A stretch of DNA of 32,219 bases, taken from Candidatus Peribacteria bacterium. GTDB taxonomy: Bacteria > Patescibacteriota > Gracilibacteria > Peribacterales > Peribacteraceae. The position numbers and the translations under genes were made by a program. Every line of letters starts with the position of its first letter. Position 1 is the first letter of the stretch. Below the pieces are notes generated by a model, which was not told the DNA's origin, ran no database searches, and saw nothing but the letters and a program-made list of their open reading frames with translations. Below, piece by piece: positions 8,372 to 29,590 of the stretch. The DNA is taken from the NCBI GenBank assembly GCA_028286915.1, contig JAQBQQ010000010.1, forward strand, positions 1-32,219, read 5' to 3'.

Positions 8372-9580
8372 ATGAATACCCGCCTCTCCTTCTGCATTGG
8401 CATACTGCTCACTGCGCTCATGAGCATTCCTGCGCAAGCCGCTACCATGCAGCATGCTGACAGTATCCACATTACTGTCCCTGTTTCTGATAATTTATAC
8501 TTGGCCGGTAATACTATTACGCAGGCTTCTCCCGTTGCCGGTGACTTACTGGCAGCCGGTGGAACCGTACGTGTGGAGGGAAGCGTGGGCAATACACTCC
8601 AGGCGGCGGGCGGTCAGGTTTCTATTGATGCGCCTGTCATGCGCAGCGCCCGGCTGGCCGGAGGAACCGTTAACGTCTCCAATCATATTGGCAGTGATCT
8701 TATTATTGCCGGCGGACAGATACTGGTGGAATCCGGAGCCGTCATCGACAAAGACATGGTAGTTTTTGGCGGTACCGTGACCATCAGCGGACATGTGAAA
8801 GGAAAACTGAAAGCTGCCGGAGGAACGATTATGGTGGACGGAGTCATTGACGGCCCGGTGGATATTACGGGAAATGACGTAACCGTGAACGGCAGTATTG
8901 GCGGTGCAAGCATATTGTCGGCATCACAGTTGCATGTGACAGACCGCGCATCATTCGGGCAGGCAGTGCGCTACTGGACAGGCAGCGGTGAAATTGCCTT
9001 CGGATCATCCATAAAAGGAGGCGCTGCCACGGCAATCTTTGATCCCGCTCTCGCGCGCGCACACCCGTCCGGAATGACGGGCAAGACCGGAGCTGCCATT
9101 TTGGGATTATTTGCACTCTATTCATTACTTTCATCCGCGCTCATTCTGTTCTTACTGCTCCTGCTTGGTGGACCATTCTGGAGGAGGGCAGGTGACATTC
9201 TCCGGCAAAAACCCTGGTGGTCTCTTCTCATCGGGTTTCTGTATTTCGTGGTCATGCCGCCGCTTATTGCTCTTCTCCTTATCACTATCATCGGTATTCC
9301 CATCGCGTTCTTTCTGCTTTTTGTGTACGTCTTTTCATGGGTCTTCGGCGGCGTGATCACTGCCATTCTGCTCACTCGCTGGCTGGAAGTATGGCAGCGT
9401 AAAACATGGAATCCCGGCGTATTTTTCCTTATCAGTCTGCTGATTCTTATTCTTCTCAAAATACTGAGTTTCATTCCCGTTCTCGGCTGGATTATACGTG
9501 CCATTCTGTTATGTATGGCATTCGGCGCATTGCTGTCGGACATTGGCGCTTCCTGGAAACGGAGTTCCTCTGGAAAGTAA
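8372..9580 (+). CDS. bactofilin-like beta-helix protein with C-terminal membrane helices
   Basis: The 402-aa protein begins with a signal peptide (MNTRLSFCIGILLTALMS, cleavage likely after AQA). Residues about 25-215 form a Gly/Val-rich repetitive region with turns such as GGTVRVEGSV, GGTVNVSNHI, GGTVTISGHV and GGTIMVDGVI, the pattern of polymer-forming (bactofilin-type) right-handed beta-helices. About four hydrophobic helices follow (from AAILGLFALYSLL through WIIRAILLCMAFG). With a signal peptide the helix domain would face outside the cytoplasm, unlike classical bactofilins, suggesting an envelope scaffold. Start 8372 is preferred for its clean signal peptide; 8339 is the alternative. A strong terminator follows. 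Confidence 0.8.
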   Translation: MNTRLSFCIGILLTALMSIPAQAATMQHADSIHITVPVSDNLYLAGNTITQASPVAGDLLAAGGTVRVEGSVGNTLQAAGGQVSIDAPVMRSARLAGGTVNVSNHIGSDLIIAGGQILVESGAVIDKDMVVFGGTVTISGHVKGKLKAAGGTIMVDGVIDGPVDITGNDVTVNGSIGGASILSASQLHVTDRASFGQAVRYWTGSGEIAFGSSIKGGAATAIFDPALARAHPSGMTGKTGAAILGLFALYSLLSSALILFLLLLLGGPFWRRAGDILRQKPWWSLLIGFLYFVVMPPLIALLLITIIGIPIAFFLLFVYVFSWVFGGVITAILLTRWLEVWQRKTWNPGVFFLISLLILILLKILSFIPVLGWIIRAILLCMAFGALLSDIGASWKRSSSGK

Positions 9581-17280: not shown

Positions 17281-18216
17281 CTAATCCAGAGCCGCTTTAC
17301 TGGCACTCAGTTCGGCCAGCTCCGATGTAATATTTGCCTGACGCGTCTGGTTATAGGTAAGAGTCAGATCATCCAGAATATCGGACGCGTTATCCGAGGC
17401 GTTACGCATAGCCACCATACGTGCCGAATGTTCGGATGCAACGGCCTCAAGCAGGGCCTGATATACCTGCACTTCGGTAATTAACGGAATAATGGCGTCT
17501 ACAACCTCCTGCGGAGAGGGCTCAAGCAAATATTGCTTCCCGTGCATAGATGCAGGGTTGAACGGGGTATCTTTTGCTGCATTTTTCTTCTGAGACGCTT
17601 TCCCTACGGCCATCATTTCTTTTAGCGTTGAATCGGAAAACGGCAATAATACTTTTACCGTCGCCTCCTGAACCAGTGGAGAAACAAAGTCGGTATAAAT
17701 AAGAACCACGTGGTCATACTGCCTGCTGGCAAAACTGTCCGAAATTAAACGGATAACAGGCCGCATATCTTTAAACGACGGGTGATTACTGAAAGCCGGA
17801 AATGCCGCTACAACGTTGTGACCGTTGCGCGCCAGAAACTGCTGTCCTTTTTTGCCCACAGCAATAAAATCCACACTCTGAAATGTAGCCAGTTCTTTGA
17901 TGTCGCGGGTATAGTGCCCAGCTGTACGAAACAACTGGGAATTAAGACTTCCGGCAAGACCGCGATCCGATGAAAAAAGAACGGCAAGGACATTCTTTAC
18001 AGGCCGCTTCTGAAGCGAGAAGTGCAAATCCGGATTCAGCGATGCAACGCGCTGCAAAATATCCCATGACGCACTTGTATACCGTCGCAATTGCTGAGCA
18101 TTCATGACTGCCTTACGCATTTTGGAGGCCGCTACCAGCTCCATAGCCTTCGTCACCTGACGCGTGGCCTTGATGGCTTTCATTTTACGCCGGATGTCGC
18201 GGAGACTGCGTGGCAT
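17281..18216 (-). CDS. atpG: F1F0 ATP synthase subunit gamma
   Basis: The gamma subunit is the rotating central stalk that couples the c-ring to the catalytic head. The 311-aa protein starts with the conserved MPRSLRDIRRKMKAIKATRQ and VTKAMELVAASKMRKA, contains SSDRGLAGSLN, and ends with EHSARMVAMRNASDNASDIL followed by LTLTYNQTRQANITSELAEL, all hallmark regions. It is about 20-25 residues longer than many homologues, with extra sequence around VGKASQKKNAAKDTPFNPAS in the globular domain. Last gene of the atp operon, 59 nt after atpA; the gap contains an A+T-rich, imperfectly repeated stretch (GAATTGAGAATGAAGAATTA). Confidence 0.96.
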   Translation of the reverse strand: MPRSLRDIRRKMKAIKATRQVTKAMELVAASKMRKAVMNAQQLRRYTSASWDILQRVASLNPDLHFSLQKRPVKNVLAVLFSSDRGLAGSLNSQLFRTAGHYTRDIKELATFQSVDFIAVGKKGQQFLARNGHNVVAAFPAFSNHPSFKDMRPVIRLISDSFASRQYDHVVLIYTDFVSPLVQEATVKVLLPFSDSTLKEMMAVGKASQKKNAAKDTPFNPASMHGKQYLLEPSPQEVVDAIIPLITEVQVYQALLEAVASEHSARMVAMRNASDNASDILDDLTLTYNQTRQANITSELAELSASKAALD

Positions 18217-18275
18217 GGAGAACGTAGAATTGAGAATGAAGAATTATCGATTGTCGGATTGATCCGATTTAATTT

Positions 18276-19799
18276 TTAATTCGCAGCAAATCCTTTCTGC
18301 TCTTTATACTTCACAAGTGCCTCTTTCAATTCTTCTTCGGCTTCCTTGGTAAGCTCTTTGGCAAGCGTAGTTACTAGGGGCGCTTTTTCAATACGCAGGG
18401 ATGACAAAAATTCTGCCAGAAATTCGCGGACGCTTGTTACGGGAATATTGTCCAGATAGCCGTTTACACCGGCGTACAACATAATCACCTGTTCTGCCAC
18501 CGGGTATGGAGCAGACTGGTCCTGCTTGAGAATTTCGGTAAGACGCGCACCACGGTCCAGCTGCTTCTTGGTAGCAGCATCCAGATCCGAACCGAACTGG
18601 GCAAATACCGCCAGTTCGCGATACTGAGCCAGGTCCAGACGGATTTTCCCGGCTACTTTTTTCATGGACTTGGTTTGGGCCGCCGAACCCACACGGGAAA
18701 CAGATGTACCCACATTTACAGCCGGACGGACACCTTTATAGAACAAATCGGCTTCCAGGAATATCTGGCCGTCTGTGATGGAAATAACGTTTGTCGGAAC
18801 ATAGGCGGATATTTCTCCAGCCTGGGTTTCGATAATAGGCAAAGCAGTCAACGAACCGCCGCCGAATTTCTCATCCAGACACACGGCACGCTCCAGCAAA
18901 CGGGAGTGTAGGTAGAATACGTCTCCCGGATACGCCTCACGACCCGGCGGGCGACGCAACAGCAGTGAAATCTGGCGGTATGCCCATGCCTGGCGGCTTA
19001 AATCATCATATACTATGAGAACGTCTTTTCCCTGGTCCACGAAGTACTCGCCCATGGCCGTTCCGGAAAACGGTGCAATATACGACAGTGCAGCCGGTTC
19101 CGATGCTCCGGCAGATACCACAATAGTATATTCCATGGCACCGTTTCTTTCCAGTTCCTGTACGATTTTTGTTACCTTGGATTCCTTCTGGCCGACCGCT
19201 ACGTAAATACAGATAACAGGGCGATCAGAATTCTGCGTTGTTTTCTGGTTCAAAATAGCATCAATAGCTACAGCAGTTTTTCCTGTCTGACGATCACCGA
19301 TAATAAGTTCACGCTGACCACGACCGATAGGAATCATGGCATCGATGGATGTAATACCTGTCTGTAGCGGCATGGTAACGGACTTGCGTTCAATAACACC
19401 GGGGGCGATCTTTTCGACCGGATATTCAGCCGCACCCTTAATGGCAGGCCCGCCGTCTTTAGCCTCTCCAAGGGGCGAAACAACACGACCGATTAAATCC
19501 TCGCCAACAGGAATAGACAATACTTTACCCATGGCCTTTACCGTGTCACCTTGTTTTACCTTGGTAAAATCTCCAAAGATAATGGCTCCAATCATATCCT
19601 CTTCCAGGTTTAATGCGCTGCCAATGACACCGTTTCCAAAGTCGATCATTTCGGATGACCCTATATTGGACAAGCCCTTAATTTTGGCAATACCATCACC
19701 AATGGAAACAACTGTTCCAATGTGTTCCTGCTTAATTTCTCTGGAGTAGGAATCCAGTTTTTGCTGGAACATACCGTGCATATCAGTTTTGAGCGTCAT
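18276..19799 (-). CDS. atpA: F1F0 ATP synthase subunit alpha
   Basis: The alpha subunit forms, with beta, the hexameric head and carries non-catalytic nucleotide sites. The 507-aa protein has the Walker A motif GDRQTGKT (residues 168-175), the conserved [13 protein letters not shown] and [18 protein letters not shown] blocks, the subunit signature around [20 protein letters not shown], and [20 protein letters not shown]. Length is standard. The N-terminal segment ([14 protein letters not shown]) that normally contacts the delta subunit is present and of ordinary length, which is of interest given the very short AtpH upstream. The start at 19799 is preferred; an ATG six codons later is possible. 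Confidence 0.98.
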
Positions 19800-19847
19800 A
19801 GGTGAAAGAAGAAAATCAAACGAATGGTAGAGGTTTTAGACGTATCT

Positions 19848-20201
19848 TTATAGCGTTTCTCTGGCATCAAGCAGTGCTTTCTTTACGCTCATATCAATGC
19901 GCTCATCCTTAAACTGAATAATAATACCGCCGATAATGCCGGGATCGGCCTTTTCCTGGATGGATACCGGTTTTTTAAGCTTGGCTTGTACTACATCCGC
20001 AATAAGATCTTTTACAGAACCGGCATCGCCGTTTGGTGAAGTAAGGGTAATAGGTACGGTGCTCTGGTATTCATCTATAGCCTCGCGCAACAGCTCCAGG
20101 AAATCGGAGCCTTTTTGGTTTACACCCGTGGCCTTAAACGTATCAAACGCTGTTTCAATAGCGGCCTTAGTGATATCGAGAGGTGTTGGCTGATGCGTCA
20201 T
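19848..20201 (-). CDS. atpH: F1F0 ATP synthase subunit delta, N-terminally reduced
   Basis: Delta (OSCP) links the peripheral stalk to the head. This copy has only 117 aa, against roughly 175-180 in typical bacteria. The C-terminal domain is recognisable: VKDLIADVVQAKLKKPVSIQ, then DPGIIGGIIIQFKDERIDMS and VKKALLDARETL, matching the usual D-P-x-x-I-G-G...D-x-S-V pattern. The N-terminal six-helix bundle that grips the alpha N-termini is reduced to one or two helices (PLDITKAAIETAFDTF, FLELLREAIDEYQ). The start is fixed by the TAATG overlap with the atpF stop, so truncation by a wrong start is unlikely. Frame and context support a functional gene. Confidence 0.88.
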   Translation of the reverse strand: MTHQPTPLDITKAAIETAFDTFKATGVNQKGSDFLELLREAIDEYQSTVPITLTSPNGDAGSVKDLIADVVQAKLKKPVSIQEKADPGIIGGIIIQFKDERIDMSVKKALLDARETL

Positions 20202-20707
20202 TATTTAATAAGGGAAGGGATATCTTTTTCGAGAGTCTTTAAAATGCGTTCTTGATCCTTTGGTGTGAATTCACGTTCCAGAATTTTTTCGGCAAGTGTG
20301 ATACTGACATTGGAGATGGTCGCCTGGACATCGGCAATCATTTTATGACGCTCATCCTCCACCTGTTTGCGGCCTTTTTCTAATACCACGCTTGCTTCCT
20401 GCTGCGCAGTGGCCATGGCATCTTGCTTGAATTTATCCGCATATTCTTTGGCTTTCTGCAAAAATTCTTTTGCATCGGCATCCATGGATTTCAAGCGTTC
20501 TGCACGCTGCTTTTCCATATCTTTTACCTCCTGTTCCAGCTTTTTTGCATCGTCCATGGTTTTCTTTACGCGTTCCCGGCGATCATCTATGACACGGAGA
20601 ACCGGCTTATACAGAAAGTAGCTCAAGGCAGCCATAAGAATGACGAAGTTGACCATTTGAGCTATGAGCATGCCCCAGTTAATGCCGAGCGTAGTAAGAA
20701 GTGCCAT
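20201..20707 (-). CDS. atpF: F1F0 ATP synthase subunit b
   Basis: Subunit b forms the peripheral stalk. The 168-aa protein has one N-terminal transmembrane helix (about residues 10-32, NWGMLIAQMVNFVILMAALS), then a long charged coiled coil (KPVLRVIDDRRERVKKTMDD ... ADKFKQDAMATAQQEASVVL), and the C-terminal TLAEKILEREFTPKDQERIL block. YKPVLRVIDDRRERV is the usual membrane-proximal signature. One copy only, so the stalk should be a homodimer. Its stop codon overlaps the atpH start. Confidence 0.96.
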   Translation of the reverse strand: MALLTTLGINWGMLIAQMVNFVILMAALSYFLYKPVLRVIDDRRERVKKTMDDAKKLEQEVKDMEKQRAERLKSMDADAKEFLQKAKEYADKFKQDAMATAQQEASVVLEKGRKQVEDERHKMIADVQATISNVSITLAEKILEREFTPKDQERILKTLEKDIPSLIK

Positions 20708-20743
20708 GGGAAAAGGAAGGAAAATGAAAAGACGTGTAAAGCC

Positions 20744-21145
<402 letters not shown>

Positions 21146-21973
21146 TTAGGCAGGTGCTCCGTGAATCTGGGGAGGGATATCACCATGCTCGGCCGTACCA
21201 TGTTTTTCATCATGCTCACCATGGTGAGTCACGGACATTTTTATGAACGACAATGTAAGCATGGTAAATACCAGTGCCTGAATGAAACCGACGAATACTT
21301 CTAGTCCCAGGAATGGAATCGGCACAATGTACGGCACTAGGAATGACACAACCACCAGCAGCACTTCTCCGGCAAAAATATTTCCAAACAGACGGAAGAC
21401 AAAGGAGATAAGACGGGCGAATTCACCTACAAACTCCAGCAGGCCGACAAAGAAACCAACCGGACTCTTCCATGGCGCCACAATATATTTACGGGCATGC
21501 GTAAAAATACCAAGCGATGCTATACCGAGGACCTGAGTGACAATGACGGATATAAGAGAAAATGCGAGTGTGACGTTGGCATCGGCATTCATGGAGCGGA
21601 ACAGCGGGATAGCTGTTTCATGGCCTTCGTGCATACCCTGTATGGTAATACTCCCGACGCCCGGGAAAATACCCATCCAGTTACCCACCACAATAAAGAG
21701 GAAGAATGTAGCGGACATGGCGAAGATCCGACGTGTAAGCGCATTATCCTGCAAAATAGAATCGAAGAAATCGTAGAGGGTTTCCACAATAATCTCTGCA
21801 AAAGCCTGCAGGCGGCCGGGAATAAGCTTGTAGCCGGTGCTGCGCGCTACCAGGGCAAAACCGATAAGCACAGCCATGGCCATCCATGCCATAAGCAATG
21901 TGTTTCGGACCTCAAACTGCCCGATGTGGGCAATGGTTTCCGATGCAAGTGAGGGAGCTGTGATAGTAGCCAT
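21146..21973 (-). CDS. atpB: F1F0 ATP synthase subunit a
   Basis: Subunit a provides the proton half-channels next to the c-ring. The 275-aa protein has five to six transmembrane helices. The essential arginine is in FVFRLFGNIFAGE (R194), and the last helix carries FIQALVFTMLTLSFIKMSV, matching the conserved Q-A-x-x-F-x-x-L motif. Helix 1 and the loop after GNWMGIFPGVGSI are typical. It has an unusual His/Glu-rich C-terminal tail (THHGEHDEKHGTAEHGD) of about 28 residues beyond the normal end. It starts 15 nt after the AtpZ gene. Confidence 0.96.
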   Translation of the reverse strand: MATITAPSLASETIAHIGQFEVRNTLLMAWMAMAVLIGFALVARSTGYKLIPGRLQAFAEIIVETLYDFFDSILQDNALTRRIFAMSATFFLFIVVGNWMGIFPGVGSITIQGMHEGHETAIPLFRSMNADANVTLAFSLISVIVTQVLGIASLGIFTHARKYIVAPWKSPVGFFVGLLEFVGEFARLISFVFRLFGNIFAGEVLLVVVSFLVPYIVPIPFLGLEVFVGFIQALVFTMLTLSFIKMSVTHHGEHDEKHGTAEHGDIPPQIHGAPA

Positions 21974-21988
21974 AAGAAGAAAGGATAA

Positions 21989-22231
21989 TTACAGGGTAGA
22001 AAGGACGCGCTTAACGCTGCGGTACACTGTGACAAGCGAGATAGTTAGTGCGAAACCTAGTCCGGCGATAAGACATAAAGGCGACGTACTAAGTACTTTA
22101 TCCAAATACGCTCCACCAAAACCCAAGGCAAAAGCCGGCAGTGCAATAAGGAAGCCCAGTTCCCATACCAGACTGAGTGCAGCCCACGGGCTGTCAGTTG
22201 GTTTAGCCGATACTTTCTGCGTATCTGCCAT
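21989..22231 (-). CDS. atpZ: AtpZ/AtpI-type small membrane protein of the ATP synthase operon
   Basis: The 80-aa protein has two transmembrane helices (LVWELGFLIALPAFALGFGG and SPLCLIAGLGFALTISLVTV) separated by AYLDKVLST, matching the G-x-x-x-D...T-x-P pattern of the AtpZ/AtpI-like family (PF09527 type). Family members have been linked to c-ring assembly or to Mg2+/Ca2+ handling for the synthase. It starts 3 nt after the atpC stop and precedes atpB, the standard place for an I/Z subunit. Confidence 0.85.
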   Translation of the reverse strand: MADTQKVSAKPTDSPWAALSLVWELGFLIALPAFALGFGGAYLDKVLSTSPLCLIAGLGFALTISLVTVYRSVKRVLSTL

Positions 22232-22234
22232 AGA

Positions 22235-22666
22235 TTAGGAATCGGATGAGGTAAATGACCGGCGGCTCCGGTGACGGCGAACAGTCTTAAGACGAGCAAG
22301 CTCGCGGTTAAGGACAGCCAGTGCTTCTGTATATCCTTCGATATCCAGCCGCTTCTCCGACATCAGTTTTTCTGCATCAGCCTTGGCTTTCTGGATAGCC
22401 TCTTCATCAAGCTCATTGGCGGCATCCGCAATATCCGTTAAGACACGGGCACGCTGACCGTCCACCTCTATTACCCCGCGGGATACGGCAAATGCATGTT
22501 CACGGCCCTGTTCGCGCACAATAAGCGTTCCCGGCATTACCGAAGTAATAAGCGGAACGTGCATGGACAGGACAACAATTTCACCGTCGCCGGTTGGCAA
22601 TGTGACAGCGTCTACATCTCCTTCATAGACCACTTTCTCCGGTGTTATAATTTCGAGATGAAACAT
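22235..22666 (-). CDS. atpC: F1F0 ATP synthase subunit epsilon
   Basis: Epsilon sits at the base of the rotor and can inhibit ATP hydrolysis. The 143-aa protein opens with MFHLEIITPEKVVYEGDVDA and has the beta-sandwich signature LPTGDGEIVVLSMHVPLITS, then the two-helix C-terminal domain (ELDEEAIQKAKADAEKLMSE ... LNRELARLKTVRRH). The C-terminal helices are complete, so an inhibitory role is possible. It lies 124 nt after atpD, the largest gap in the operon, with a possible weak promoter (TTGGAA-18-TAAGTA) in the gap. Confidence 0.95.
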   Translation of the reverse strand: MFHLEIITPEKVVYEGDVDAVTLPTGDGEIVVLSMHVPLITSVMPGTLIVREQGREHAFAVSRGVIEVDGQRARVLTDIADAANELDEEAIQKAKADAEKLMSEKRLDIEGYTEALAVLNRELARLKTVRRHRSRRSFTSSDS

Positions 22667-22790
22667 GGGGTGATGTAATGATTAGTGGAACGCTTGGTGG
22701 GAGGGATAATGAAAGGTATGAGGTTAATTGGTTCTGATACTTAGGGTGTAAAAGCATTTGGTTCCAATAAACCAGTCAACCCGTACGTTC

Positions 22791-24278
<1,488 letters not shown>

Positions 24279-25322
24279 TTACATATACCCTTGTCCCGGA
24301 CCTCGGTAATCACGCTTTTGGACTTCGGATAAGCGGCCAAAAAACTGGCGATATGCGACTCCTTCATCATGTAATTGCTCCAAATCTGTGGATATATGCT
24401 GAATGGAATGCATATCCAATCCATGCAGAGTGGATCTGGTCATATGATCGACCAGGTGTGATGTCACAGAAGGTGTGGCATATAAATAATGCCTGGCTGT
24501 CATTCTGCCTATAAGGCCCTGGAGATTCTCCGGAGAAAAAGCCTGTAACTGTTCAACCGTAATACCCGCATATTGTGCGTCCGACATATCCTGATACATA
24601 GCAACCAGTACAGTACCGGAAATGAGTGATACCTGCCGTACTGTAAGATACGGGATCATGGCACGCACCTCCTCCGGGCTGGCGGCTGCAACCTGCTCAT
24701 CAGGCAGATGCACAACACGGTCTTTTTCCACCAGCAAACGAAGTTCTTCTATTTTTCGTGAATGAAGATTCGTCAGTTCCCCTTTTTCGACTGCGGAAAC
24801 AACAGCTGCGGCAAGACCTGGGCCCACATGACTCAGTACATCGATAGAATTAATGGCTTTCACGGTGTTTTCCTTCTGAGCCGTATCCATTTCCTCAAAC
24901 TTTCTGGCAAAATACAGGCTGAGAATGAGCGCATCAACTTCCGTGTAGCGCTCAGGCGGCAATGACTCCAAATGCTTCATAATTCTACTTTTATGATACT
25001 CATTGAGCGCACGTTTCTCCTTACGTGCAGCTGCGGCAAGCATATTCATGGCTCTTATTGAAGATTGTATGTTCTTAGGATTCTCATTTATTGTTGTTTC
25101 CGCCCCCGCAGGAAACAGGCTTAAAACAGTGTCGTGGAGAACTTTATAAAAAGCCCGCCTTGGCGCGCGCACAGCTTCCAAAACAACTTCTCCATTCTCT
25201 AATTGATGTTCTGACATGTCTGCTCCACCTTCCGTATTTACTACCATTACATCAGGTACGGCTGCCAAAGGTAACTCCATAGGATCTATTTCAGCCGGTG
25301 TTTCCTGACGATCAATACCCAT
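24279..25322 (-). CDS. hypothetical protein, 347 aa, all-helical
   Basis: I do not recognise this protein. It is soluble and almost entirely helical by composition. Charged Glu/Arg-rich helices (AARKEKRALNEYHKSRIMKH) are followed by a set of short helix-loop units with similar phrasing: VSAVEKGELTNLHSRKIEEL, AAASPEEVRAMIPYLTVRQV, AGITVEQLQAFSPENLQGLI. This resembles helical-repeat scaffold proteins in which each unit reads T/S-x-E-x-L/V-x-x-L/I. The start at 25322 (MGIDRQET) is preferred, since a -10 (TATAAA, 25375-25370) lies too close to the next upstream ATG at 25367. It is directly upstream of the atp promoter and on the same strand, but nothing links the functions. Confidence 0.7.
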   Translation of the reverse strand: MGIDRQETPAEIDPMELPLAAVPDVMVVNTEGGADMSEHQLENGEVVLEAVRAPRRAFYKVLHDTVLSLFPAGAETTINENPKNIQSSIRAMNMLAAAARKEKRALNEYHKSRIMKHLESLPPERYTEVDALILSLYFARKFEEMDTAQKENTVKAINSIDVLSHVGPGLAAAVVSAVEKGELTNLHSRKIEELRLLVEKDRVVHLPDEQVAAASPEEVRAMIPYLTVRQVSLISGTVLVAMYQDMSDAQYAGITVEQLQAFSPENLQGLIGRMTARHYLYATPSVTSHLVDHMTRSTLHGLDMHSIQHISTDLEQLHDEGVAYRQFFGRLSEVQKRDYRGPGQGYM

Positions 25323-25375: not shown

Positions 25376-25437
25376 ATTTGGTCAAATACAAACTCAGAAT
25401 TCTTTCGCGAATCGTTTATGTGAGCTTCATTTATATT

Positions 25438-25474
25438 AAAAAGGGGCTCAATATCATCGTTGATACTGAGCCCC
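25438..25474 (-). terminator. intrinsic terminator of the small-membrane-protein operon
   Basis: On the minus strand GGGGCTCA-G-TATCA-ACGA-TGATA-T-TGAGCCCC forms a 14-bp stem (one G-U pair) with a 4-nt loop, followed directly by TTTTTAAT. The wobble is G-U only in the minus-strand RNA (A-C in the other), so it acts best for the leftward operon. Confidence 0.92.
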
Positions 25475-25514
25475 GGTCCATCCAGATGGATGGAAAATGT
25501 GTGCTACTTCGTTA

Positions 25515-25679
25515 CTATCTCCGTCTGCGAATACCCAGAAATTTCTTAAAAGGACCAAGGACATAGACCCATAACAGCGGCACCATGACGAGGATCCCGG
25601 CCCAGAAAGCCAGAACCAAAAAATCCTGCCTGTTCAGCTTTCGCCTGTTAACAGGCGCGCCGTATCTGTCCACCTCCAT
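25515..25679 (-). CDS. small single-helix membrane protein (fourth gene of micro-operon)
   Basis: The 54-aa product reads MEVDRYGAPVNRRKLNRQDF, then one hydrophobic helix (LVLAFWAGILVMVPLLWVYV), and a basic tail ending GIRRRR. The positive-inside rule is ambiguous because both ends are basic, which could fit a peripheral amphipathic arrangement. It is supported by AAGGAG five nt before the ATG and by a one-base TGATG overlap with the gene before it. The terminator follows 41 nt after its stop. No family recognised. Confidence 0.75.
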   Translation of the reverse strand: MEVDRYGAPVNRRKLNRQDFLVLAFWAGILVMVPLLWVYVLGPFKKFLGIRRRR

Positions 25680-25861
25680 CACTTCTCCTTATGTGTGAAT
25701 GATCGGGGCGGCCGTTTAAATCCCTTGGCTCTGTCGTTATTCTGCCCTCTGGGATAGAGGGCACAAGCGACAACAAGTACCAGAAATATGGCAAGCAACA
25801 GCCTTTCCCACCAATTGAGCGGGAAAGAAAGCTGGGACGAAAGCGTCCTGCCTGGGCTCAT
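25679..25861 (-). CDS. small single-helix membrane protein (third gene of micro-operon)
   Basis: The 60-aa product has a short polar N-terminus (MSPGRTLSSQLSFPLNWWER), one transmembrane helix (LLLAIFLVLVVACALYP) and a strongly basic tail (AKGFKRPPRSFTHKEK), predicting the C-terminus in the cytoplasm. The start at 25861 is fixed by AGGAGG seven nt upstream and by the ATGA overlap with the previous stop. The FPLNWW...helix-Y arrangement echoes the FPVWV and CPAWV helices of the first two gene products, so all three may be distant relatives. Confidence 0.78.
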   Translation of the reverse strand: MSPGRTLSSQLSFPLNWWERLLLAIFLVLVVACALYPRGQNNDRAKGFKRPPRSFTHKEK

Positions 25862-26106
25862 CGACCAGCCTCCTGCGAAGTTACGGCCTTCTTCGCCCCC
25901 GAGGGGGCGGAAGACGACCGGGCGCTGTACATCATAATGAAGGCACAAAAGATTGCGCCGATGAGGATGCTGACCCAGACGGGGAAGTCGCCGGACTGGT
26001 TATCGGGCTGGGTGACGAGCGCCTGACGGGCGAGGGGACATTTCTTCGTCGTGGTCTGAACGGACTGCAAGGCGATGTTCGCGAGGCTGTCAGTGGTCTG
26101 AGGCAT
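25858..26106 (-). CDS. small single-helix membrane protein with CPLAR/SGD motif (second gene of micro-operon)
   Basis: The 82-aa product has an N-terminal soluble part with KKCPLARQAL (residues 21-30) and SGDFPVWV (38-45), one transmembrane helix (SILIGAIFCAFIMMYSA, 46-62), and a Ser/Ala/Lys-rich tail. It is a diverged paralogue of the preceding gene: ALxSV, CPLAR, SGDxPxWV and the helix follow in the same order, with 10 instead of 13 residues between CPLAR and SGD. The ribosome site is GAGG before the ATG at 26106. No known family recognised; the single Cys in CPLAR could be a metal, disulfide or modification site. Confidence 0.78.
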   Translation of the reverse strand: MPQTTDSLANIALQSVQTTTKKCPLARQALVTQPDNQSGDFPVWVSILIGAIFCAFIMMYSARSSSAPSGAKKAVTSQEAGR

Positions 26107-26162
26107 GTTTCGATCCTCTAAAAATGGGATTCTGAAATGAGAGAAGGAAGAATGGCATCGTC

Positions 26163-26426
26163 TCAGCGGGCGGACGACTTGATCTGCACGACAGGTGCGA
26201 ACCTGGTCGCTCCCTCGCCGTACTGGTACCTGACAAGAATAACGAACCCGATGACAAACATCATAATCACGGCTTCCACCCACGCGGGGCAGTCGCCGGA
26301 TTCGTCCTCAACCTGCGGGCTGACGTTCGTCAGCGAGATGCGGGCGAGAGGACACTCAATGCTGGGGACGGCATGCAGGGCCGTCTTGACGACATCCTTG
26401 GCGGCGGCGGTGCTGGCGCGTTCCAT
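26163..26426 (-). CDS. small single-helix membrane protein with CPLAR/SGD motif (first gene of micro-operon)
   Basis: The 87-aa product has an N-terminal helix (ERASTAAAKDVVKTALHAV), then IECPLARISL (residues 23-32), SGDCPAWV (43-50) and a transmembrane helix (AVIMMFVIGFVILVRY, 52-67), ending in a basic tail (RFAPVVQIKSSAR). It shares the CPLAR...SGDxPxWV-helix plan with the next gene. The start at 26426 has GGAG seven nt upstream. It is G+C-richer than the noncoding DNA around it, as expected for a real gene. It has 56 nt to the next start. Function unknown. Confidence 0.78.
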   Translation of the reverse strand: MERASTAAAKDVVKTALHAVPSIECPLARISLTNVSPQVEDESGDCPAWVEAVIMMFVIGFVILVRYQYGEGATRFAPVVQIKSSAR

Positions 26427-26466
26427 GTTGAACTCCGTCAAAAACTGGACGTAAATAGTAACGATT

Positions 26467-26512
26467 CGTAGCACTCTGGATACCTGACGCTTCTGATGTC
26501 CAGGGTGCTACG
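26467..26512. repeat. long imperfect inverted repeat in the leader of the micro-operon
   Basis: CGTAGCACTCTGGA (26467-26480) and TCCAGGGTGCTACG (26499-26512) pair over 14 positions with one exception around an 18-nt loop. The exception is a U-G pair in + strand RNA and a C-A mismatch in minus-strand RNA. It lies between the operon promoter and the first start codon, so the operon mRNA would carry it. Confidence 0.6.
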
Positions 26513-26542
26513 GATTTGAATGGTGTGCAAGGAACTATGCAT

Positions 26543-26570
26543 ACTTTAGTACTTAAATTTATTCTGTCAA
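26543..26570 (-). promoter_or_regulatory. promoter of the small-membrane-protein operon
   Basis: On the minus strand, consensus TTGACA (26570-26565) is followed after 16 nt by TAAAGT (26548-26543). The leader to the first ATG is about 110 nt and contains the inverted repeat at 26467-26512. Confidence 0.6.
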
Positions 26571-27748: not shown

Positions 27749-29590
27749 ATGGAACAAGCCCACACGGCCTCTGCCCATCATCCACATGCTCATACAAAGC
27801 TGGGGCAGCTGTATGCCACCGCTATTAGCGGTAATGACATTATGAGTTCTTGTTTGTATGTATCGGGTATTGCCATTTTATTTGCCGGTATTTACGCACC
27901 ACTTATTCTTCTCTCCATTGGTGCCGTCTTGTTCCTATACAAAATGGTGTATATAGAAGTAGTCGAAGCACTCCCTGTGAACGGCGGTGCCTATAACTGC
28001 CTGCTCAATGCCACCTCTAAAACCGTTGCCGCTGTTGCCGGTGTTATGACTTTCCTTTCCTACGTAGCAACTGCTGTTATTTCCGCCAAAGTCGGTGTTG
28101 TATTTTTGCATTCCATTCTGCCCGCATCTGTCGATGCGTTTTTCGCCCCTTTCAGCTTTATAGGAGGTGATGCTGCAAATACAGCCATTATTGTCATTAC
28201 TGTTCTGGTACTTTTGGCCTTTGCCATTCTGGTTATAGGCGGCGTGAAAGATTCTGCAAAAGTAGCTTTTGGTATTTTTGCATTCCATCTCCTTATTCTC
28301 ACCAGTGTTGTTCTGTATGGTGCCTACTATGCGTTTATTCTGCATGGCGCTTCCCATTTTGCCGATAACTACGCCCAGACTGCCGGCGTTATTCGTGAAC
28401 ACGGGGGCATTGCCAAAACATTATTCTTTGCCTTCTCTGCCTGCCTCCTGGGCGTATCAGGTTTCGAATCTTCTGCCAACTTCGTAGAAGAACAGCAGCG
28501 CGGCGTGTTCCGCAAGACGCTTCGCAATATGTTATTGGGTGTCGTTATTTTCAACCCGCTCATCGCTCTTGTTATCCTGAACACTATCCCAATAGAAAGC
28601 GTAACAGAAGCAACAACCGACTACGTTCTTATTAACACATCTAAGGATTTGGGCGGCATGATCTTCCAGTACTTCGTAGTGATTGATGCCTTCCTGGTAC
28701 TCTGTGGTGCCGTTCTTACTTCCTATGTGGGCGTAAGCGGACTGCTCAACCGCATGAGCTCCGACGGCTGTCTGCCGAGTTTCTTCAATAAGGAAAACAA
28801 GAAAGGTTCCTTCCCGCGCATTATCATTACGTTCTTCCTGCTCTGCACATCCATTCTGGTTGCCACCAAGGGCAACACGCTGTCTCTGGCCGGCGTGTAC
28901 ACCATCGCCTTCCTTGGCGTCATGACATTGTTTGCTTTCGGTAACCTTGTTCTTAAAGAGGCGCGCAAAGACTTAAAGCGTACCTACCACGCCCCGCGCA
29001 TTGTGGCGCTTGTGGCTCTCATTTCCACGGCTGCAGGTATGATCGGCAATATTCTCATCAATCACCAGAACATTGTCTTTTTTGCCACGTACTTCGTGCC
29101 GGTCATGCTTATTGTACTGGTTATTATCTACGCGGATTTCGTTCTGCGGGGTCTCATGAGAATGTTCGGCAACATGTCGGGCATCAGCAAAGCCATTCAA
29201 AGATATTTTAGTGATATTACCGGCGGAAAGTATGTTGTCTTTATTCACCATGCCAACCGTCTGTACTCCGCGCTGGATTACCTGAACCGTAACGAGACCG
29301 GTCGTAACGTTACACTGGTGTACTGTAATAACGGCGCCATGGATACGGAAGATGACGACAAGAACTTCAAGGAAATTCAGGAGACTCTGCCGTACCTGGT
29401 AAAGGCGGGCTTTATGCCGCACATGACCGTGGACCTGAAGTACGTAGACAAGCCGTTCGGCCCGGAGACCATCGACAGCGTGTCCCGCGAAATGGGTATC
29501 CGCAAGAACCGTATCATGATTGGTTCCATCCATGATTTCCATGAGTTCGAATACGACGAACTGGGCGGCGTCCGCATTATTTTCGGCTAA
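27749..29590 (+). CDS. APC-superfamily amino acid permease with C-terminal Usp-like domain
   Basis: The 613-aa protein has a His-rich N-terminus (SAHHPHAHTK), about twelve transmembrane helices (residues about 20-480) and a soluble C-terminal domain of about 130 residues. The first helix, ATAISGNDIMSSCLYVSG, carries the unwound substrate-binding G-x-x-I/M-S-S type motif of APC transporters, and ACLLGVSGFESSANFVEEQQ matches the helix 6 GFE signature. The tail (GKYVVFIHHANRLYSALDYL, VTLVYCNN, MGIRKNRIMIGSIHDF) has the strand-helix order of universal-stress-protein folds, which can bind nucleotides. Substrate is probably an amino acid or amine, not specified by sequence. A terminator follows. 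Confidence 0.85.
   Translation: MEQAHTASAHHPHAHTKLGQLYATAISGNDIMSSCLYVSGIAILFAGIYAPLILLSIGAVLFLYKMVYIEVVEALPVNGGAYNCLLNATSKTVAAVAGVMTFLSYVATAVISAKVGVVFLHSILPASVDAFFAPFSFIGGDAANTAIIVITVLVLLAFAILVIGGVKDSAKVAFGIFAFHLLILTSVVLYGAYYAFILHGASHFADNYAQTAGVIREHGGIAKTLFFAFSACLLGVSGFESSANFVEEQQRGVFRKTLRNMLLGVVIFNPLIALVILNTIPIESVTEATTDYVLINTSKDLGGMIFQYFVVIDAFLVLCGAVLTSYVGVSGLLNRMSSDGCLPSFFNKENKKGSFPRIIITFFLLCTSILVATKGNTLSLAGVYTIAFLGVMTLFAFGNLVLKEARKDLKRTYHAPRIVALVALISTAAGMIGNILINHQNIVFFATYFVPVMLIVLVIIYADFVLRGLMRMFGNMSGISKAIQRYFSDITGGKYVVFIHHANRLYSALDYLNRNETGRNVTLVYCNNGAMDTEDDDKNFKEIQETLPYLVKAGFMPHMTVDLKYVDKPFGPETIDSVSREMGIRKNRIMIGSIHDFHEFEYDELGGVRIIFG

Follow-up and report, generated by a model that had tools for sequence, protein, structure and literature searches.

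How does an operon of four small membrane protein genes, each led by a strong Shine-Dalgarno (SD) site, come to lie in the chromosome of a bacterium that makes little use of such sites? The operon occupies the minus strand at positions 25438-26570 of the window, that is, of the whole 32,219-nucleotide stretch of Candidatus Peribacteria bacterium contig JAQBQQ010000010.1 that was analysed.

A self-contained unit of four overlapping or closely spaced genes

From 5' to 3' on the minus strand, the locus consists of a promoter-like site, a leader with a hairpin, four ORFs of 87, 82, 60 and 54 codons (products P1, P2, P3 and P4), each with its own SD site, and a strong terminator. The promoter-like site, TTGACA-N16-TAAAGT (26543..26570), was detected in a consensus scan with 10 of 12 matches; as such sites were not above the shuffle rate (7 found, 5.2 expected), it is regarded as a putative promoter. 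The leader of about 110 nt contains an inverted repeat (26464..26515) with 24-nt arms that are 79% complementary (fold z = -2.9). Compared with Rfam, the leader gave chance matches only and no family, and it has no second copy in its own genome.

P1 (26163..26426) is a predicted single-pass membrane protein of 87 aa, with CPLAR at residues 25-29, SGDCPAWV at 43-50 and a helix at about 47-69; its SD is GACGGAG. P2 (25858..26106; 82 aa) carries CPLAR at 23-27, SGDFPVWV at 38-45 and a helix at about 41-59, and is preceded by AGAGGA. P3 (25679..25861; 60 aa; SD AGGAGG) and P4 (25515..25679; 54 aa; SD AAGGAG) are also predicted to be single-pass membrane proteins, P4 being basic at both ends. P1 and P2 are separated by a 56-nt gap, P3 starts within an ATGA overlap with P2, and P4 within a TGATG overlap with P3; because the P2, P3 and P4 cistrons overlap, their translation can be coupled. 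The unit ends with an intrinsic terminator (25443..25474), GGGGCTCAGTATCA-ACGA-TGATATTGAGCCCC followed by TTTTT, in which a 14-bp stem precedes the T5 run. Pairing energies of the SDs with a canonical anti-SD were -6.1, -5.8, -10.3 and -8.2 kcal/mol for P1 to P4, respectively. A four-gene operon had been proposed by an earlier, sequence-only reading of this DNA, and its ORFs, SDs, overlapping junctions and terminator were all found. In conclusion, the micro-operon is a real, self-contained unit.

Around the micro-operon lie the ATP synthase operon, an orphan ORF and genes for an amino acid permease and a KUP-like transporter. The orphan ORF (24279-25322; 347 aa), which lies between atpD and the micro-operon, matches nothing in Pfam and has no relative among 70 genomes of the family. 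The permease (27749-29590) has a paralogue of 60% identity on contig C7 of the same genome and one relative (G024) among 59 genomes. The ATP synthase genes (17281-24170) are in an unusual order, with beta and epsilon before a, c, b, delta, alpha and gamma. The class to which the host belongs includes one genome whose atpD has in-frame TGA codons, which is part of the reason for placing the host, with some probability, near Peribacter.

P1 and P2 as paralogues in a putative membrane assembly

P1 and P2 are homologous, with 37% identity over 41 aa (BLASTP E = 9e-9 as a single comparison), and in a search of the whole genome each was the second match of the other (E = 3-4e-4). The shared residues include CPLAR and SGDxPxWV just N-terminal of the helix. 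These similarities bear out the paralogy already proposed from the sequence: P1 and P2 are, by the evidence of their alignment, diverged products of a duplication. Both scored as coding in their own frame, and the other frames scored below or near zero. The dN/dS comparison, proposed earlier as a check, was made on the two paralogues over 43 hand-picked, hand-aligned codons; dN was about 0.54 and dS about 1.36, which leans to purifying selection, and this evidence is weak because dS is near saturation.

As had been claimed, each of the four products has one hydrophobic stretch, with a mean Kyte-Doolittle value of 2.25-2.51 over 19 residues. The net charges before and after the helix are -3/+3 for P1, 0/+3 for P2, +1/+5 for P3 and +2/+6 for P4. 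By the positive-inside rule this suggests an N-out, C-in topology for P1, P2 and P3; the orientation of P4 is uncertain because it is basic on both sides of the helix. An AlphaFold model of P1, built from two sequences, contains helices at 5-18, 26-33 and 48-69, of which only 48-69 is confident (pLDDT 59 for the model).

As one message encodes all four single-pass proteins, and two are paralogues that share a conserved juxtamembrane motif, the products would most likely form an envelope assembly. In such an assembly the N-terminal part of P1 and P2, about 40 residues with CPLAR and SGDxPxWV, would lie outside and the basic tails inside, if the positive-inside rule holds for them. P1 and P2 would most likely associate through the conserved juxtamembrane motif and the helix, giving a hetero-oligomer of the kind that the earlier reading had also envisaged, and P3 and P4 could be accessory subunits of the same small envelope complex.

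The host has lost the anti-SD core and rarely uses SDs

The 3' end of the host 16S rRNA (minus strand of L036, about 1600-1490, G000:C41) reads GGAACAUUUCCUUA instead of the usual bacterial GGAUCACCUCCUUU; the anti-SD core is lost. The host is of the SD-scarce type, with a ACAUUUCCUUA tail that lacks CCUCC and with few SD-led genes. Loss of CCUCC and scarcity of SDs have already been described for Candidatus Peribacter riflensis and SR1 (PMC10783764). Degenerate tails of a related kind (ACAYYUCC) occur in most other family genomes, where the stretch lies opposite a downstream GGGAR segment with partial complementarity to it. In a 314-kb sample of the host genome, 114 native ATG genes were at least 200 aa long; only 4 of them reached an SD energy of -5 or below, and most of the positions upstream of the 114 genes were poor in G. 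The observation that good ribosome sites are unusual in the window was correct, and it is the key to the locus.

The altered 16S tail does not make the SDs of the micro-operon useless by necessity. With the host's own tail, pairing energies were -3.7, -5.8, -5.9 and -7.9 kcal/mol for P1 to P4, compared with a native-gene median of +0.3. Partial pairing is possible because GGA or AGGA pairs with UCC or UCCU of the altered tail, and the SDs of the micro-operon may still help initiation in this host.

P1 and P2 also differ from native genes in codon usage. Their GC3 is 0.80 and 0.78, whereas in a 553-kb sample of the same genome the native median is 0.55 and the 99th percentile about 0.69. A synonymous-codon model was trained on ten other SD-led, high-GC3 genes of this genome, P1 to P4 being left out; with this model P1 and P2 scored above all 1,457 native 83-codon windows. 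Neither P3 nor P4 stood out in it. The SDs had been taken as a sign of high or independent expression. Independence agrees with the promoter-like site, the SDs and the terminator that the unit has of its own. High expression gains no support: the host's ribosomal protein genes lack SDs and their GC3 is about 0.5-0.63, so that the codons and SDs of P1 and P2 do not match the signature of high expression in this host.

Similar units are dispersed in the genome

The 553-kb sample, about 39% of the genome, contains about ten other ORFs that share an SD, a high GC3 and the codon signature (gene starts were taken mechanically). When a single criterion was applied throughout, 10 SD-led, high-GC3 ORFs were found in the 553 kb of this genome, whereas 400 kb from four relatives yielded a single one, which is probably spurious. 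An SD motif was present in 5 of 7 genes with a GC3 of at least 0.68 and in 17 of 492 genes below that value (Fisher p = 2e-6). Five units encode products with a recognisable family: a Ham1-like protein (L081:1980-2612), CsrA (L089:8859-9149, immediately following a second csrA), an M23 peptidase (L094:12970-13644), a Nudix protein (L105:11235-11873) and a DUF11 protein (L096:8866-11868). Four have no family (L040:14317-14760, L104:10576-11415, L107:4672-5271 and L078:380-784), and one more unit lies at L076:10779-11492. In most units a TTGACA-N16/17-TATTAT-like promoter lies about 50-120 nt before the gene, and a hairpin terminator with a T-run follows it; neither feature was a selection criterion. 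The L076 unit lacks a good promoter. Because the class was defined by filtering on SD and GC3, its size and membership are approximate. These results go beyond the sequence-only reading: the P1/P2 locus has a foreign composition and is one of a class of similar units scattered through the genome.

Some members have features of their own. The adjacent csrA genes (L089:8859-9149 and 9349-9558) encode products that are 51-53% identical over 47-49 aa, and the downstream gene of the pair has the SD and the foreign codon usage. Two SD-led units lie directly 3' of tRNA genes in the same orientation (Pro and Val; L104:10345-10421 and L078:997-1073). The DUF11-repeat protein (L096:8866-11868) has 1000 aa and an N-terminal LEGRQLMA stretch, which we take to resemble the LEPR-XLL motif of Planctomycetes; this likeness is a possible hint of a donor. 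The word TTCGCGAAAGA occurs just downstream of both the micro-operon (25401-25411 of the window) and the Ham1 unit (L081:2690), with 2 copies in the 314-kb sample, which is not enough to claim an insertion site.

Searches for relatives

Searches with P1 to P4 gave nothing above threshold in Pfam, PHROGs, NCBIfam and PADLOC, which agrees with the earlier statement that no family matches, and no relative in the PDB. The PHROG matches of the four proteins and a match of P4 to the Pfam family MRAP were below any useful threshold and were discarded. Nothing beyond chance was obtained with the four proteins in viral contigs, in two scans of GTDB genome contigs or, by tblastn and blastn, in phage and plasmid records. 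A profile of P1 and P2 found this genome only among 74 family genomes, and among 380 phylum genomes only two weak matches (L090 and L091), which were rejected as homologues since both are antisense to lepA. A profile search for homologues had been put forward as the main check of the earlier proposal, with their absence to count against it; within the collections searched there are none, and conserved synteny cannot be shown because no homologues were found. The region upstream of atpD in 14 relatives, some represented by short stretches, contains no comparable operon. The genus is represented by this single genome in the comparison set.

The Ham1, L107 and Nudix units likewise had no relatives in viral contigs. 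Neither an att site nor, apart from short words, a shared repeat was found in the flanks of the micro-operon, and no integrase was recognised among the neighbouring ORFs. In genome contigs, viral contigs, phages and plasmids, no relative was found that would point to a donor lineage of P1 to P4.

Origin of the micro-operon

We consider that the micro-operon was probably gained by horizontal transfer, as a self-contained cassette that expresses a small assembly of single-pass membrane proteins; its foreign origin as such is likely. It would have been imported from an SD-using, GC3-rich source and placed between native genes of an SD-less Patescibacterium. The features that lead to this reading are the composition and codons of P1 and P2, unlike those of native genes, the strong terminator and 10/12 promoter-like site of its own, and its absence from the 74 family and 380 phylum genomes. 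Several observations weigh against it: the searches revealed no donor, integrase, att site or flanking repeat, P3 and P4 lack the foreign codon signature, the class, obtained with an SD and GC3 filter, is of approximate size and includes the L076 unit without a good promoter, and a genus represented by one genome leaves room for a native, lineage-specific origin. On this reading, and by extrapolation from the sample, the genome would have taken up perhaps two dozen such units.

A native origin is the first alternative, and an unlikely one. The units would then be lineage-specific genes with a special mode of expression, their strong SDs and GC-ending codons marking a small, differently translated regulon, as with rpsU in SD-less Bacteroidota. 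The coincidence of SDs and codon bias in units with similar promoters could be read in this way, and the altered 16S tail still allows pairing. The CsrA family binds GGA motifs in leaders, and one member of the class is a csrA gene. However, the ribosomal protein genes, which are the natural reference for high expression, lack both the SDs and the high GC3, the class is essentially absent from the sampled relatives, and its members have no common function.

It is somewhat less probable still that the micro-operon is the remnant of a phage or plasmid, with products that were once small proteins for coat, lysis or entry exclusion and whose genes stayed behind in the chromosome. Compact, SD-led operons of small single-pass membrane proteins with a terminator of their own are indeed common in mobile elements, but PHROGs, viral contigs and phage and plasmid records contained no match, and no phage or plasmid gene lies nearby. 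We also hold it doubtful that the dispersed SD-led units, including the micro-operon and csrA, form a second, separately regulated translation class whose SDs are read through the altered 16S tail or by another factor.

P3 and P4 raise a question of their own, as codon evidence gives no support to P3 and weak support to P4. Dinucleotide shuffling of their region, repeated 5,000 times, never gave two tandem ORFs of at least 50 aa that both had an SD and a membrane helix (0/5,000), and P3 and P4 are for this reason taken as probable genes. That they are chance open frames next to real P1 and P2 genes would suit their weak coding scores and lack of foreign codons, and is quite improbable given the strong, properly spaced SDs on both, the tight overlaps, the single helix in each, the terminator soon after P4 and the outcome of the shuffles. 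A repeat shared by P3 and P4 (D2) is out of frame and was put down to chance.

If the acquired-cassette reading is right, cassettes that keep their SDs where ribosomes lack a canonical anti-SD provide a natural experiment on whether SDs still aid initiation there, and SDs together with codon usage become a simple marker of recent imports in SD-less lineages such as these Patescibacteria, in which gene acquisition is poorly known. P1 to P4 would themselves be an unstudied small membrane assembly.

Comparison with known systems

Morons and ORFan cassettes are autonomous transcription units that were gained by horizontal transfer and became inserted among native genes. The micro-operon resembles them in its own promoter-like site and terminator, its deviant composition and its absence from relatives. 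It differs in that it lies in a bacterial chromosome and not in a prophage, in that no donor or recombination site was found, and in that it carries four membrane miniproteins.

With Candidatus Peribacter riflensis and SR1, the host shares a degenerate anti-SD core and SD-less genes. The survey of these organisms was made at the scale of whole genomes and, in the part consulted, gives no account of a minority of SD-led genes with deviant codons within such a genome, as found here (PMC10783764).

In Flavobacteriia, rpsU is SD-led although most genes lack SDs, as described in the same survey (PMC10783764). The likeness to the micro-operon lies in a strong SD on particular genes of an SD-poor genome. 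However, rpsU is, by that account, a native ribosomal protein gene whose SD is thought to be autoregulatory, whereas the SDs described here precede genes of orphan membrane proteins, two of which have foreign codons.
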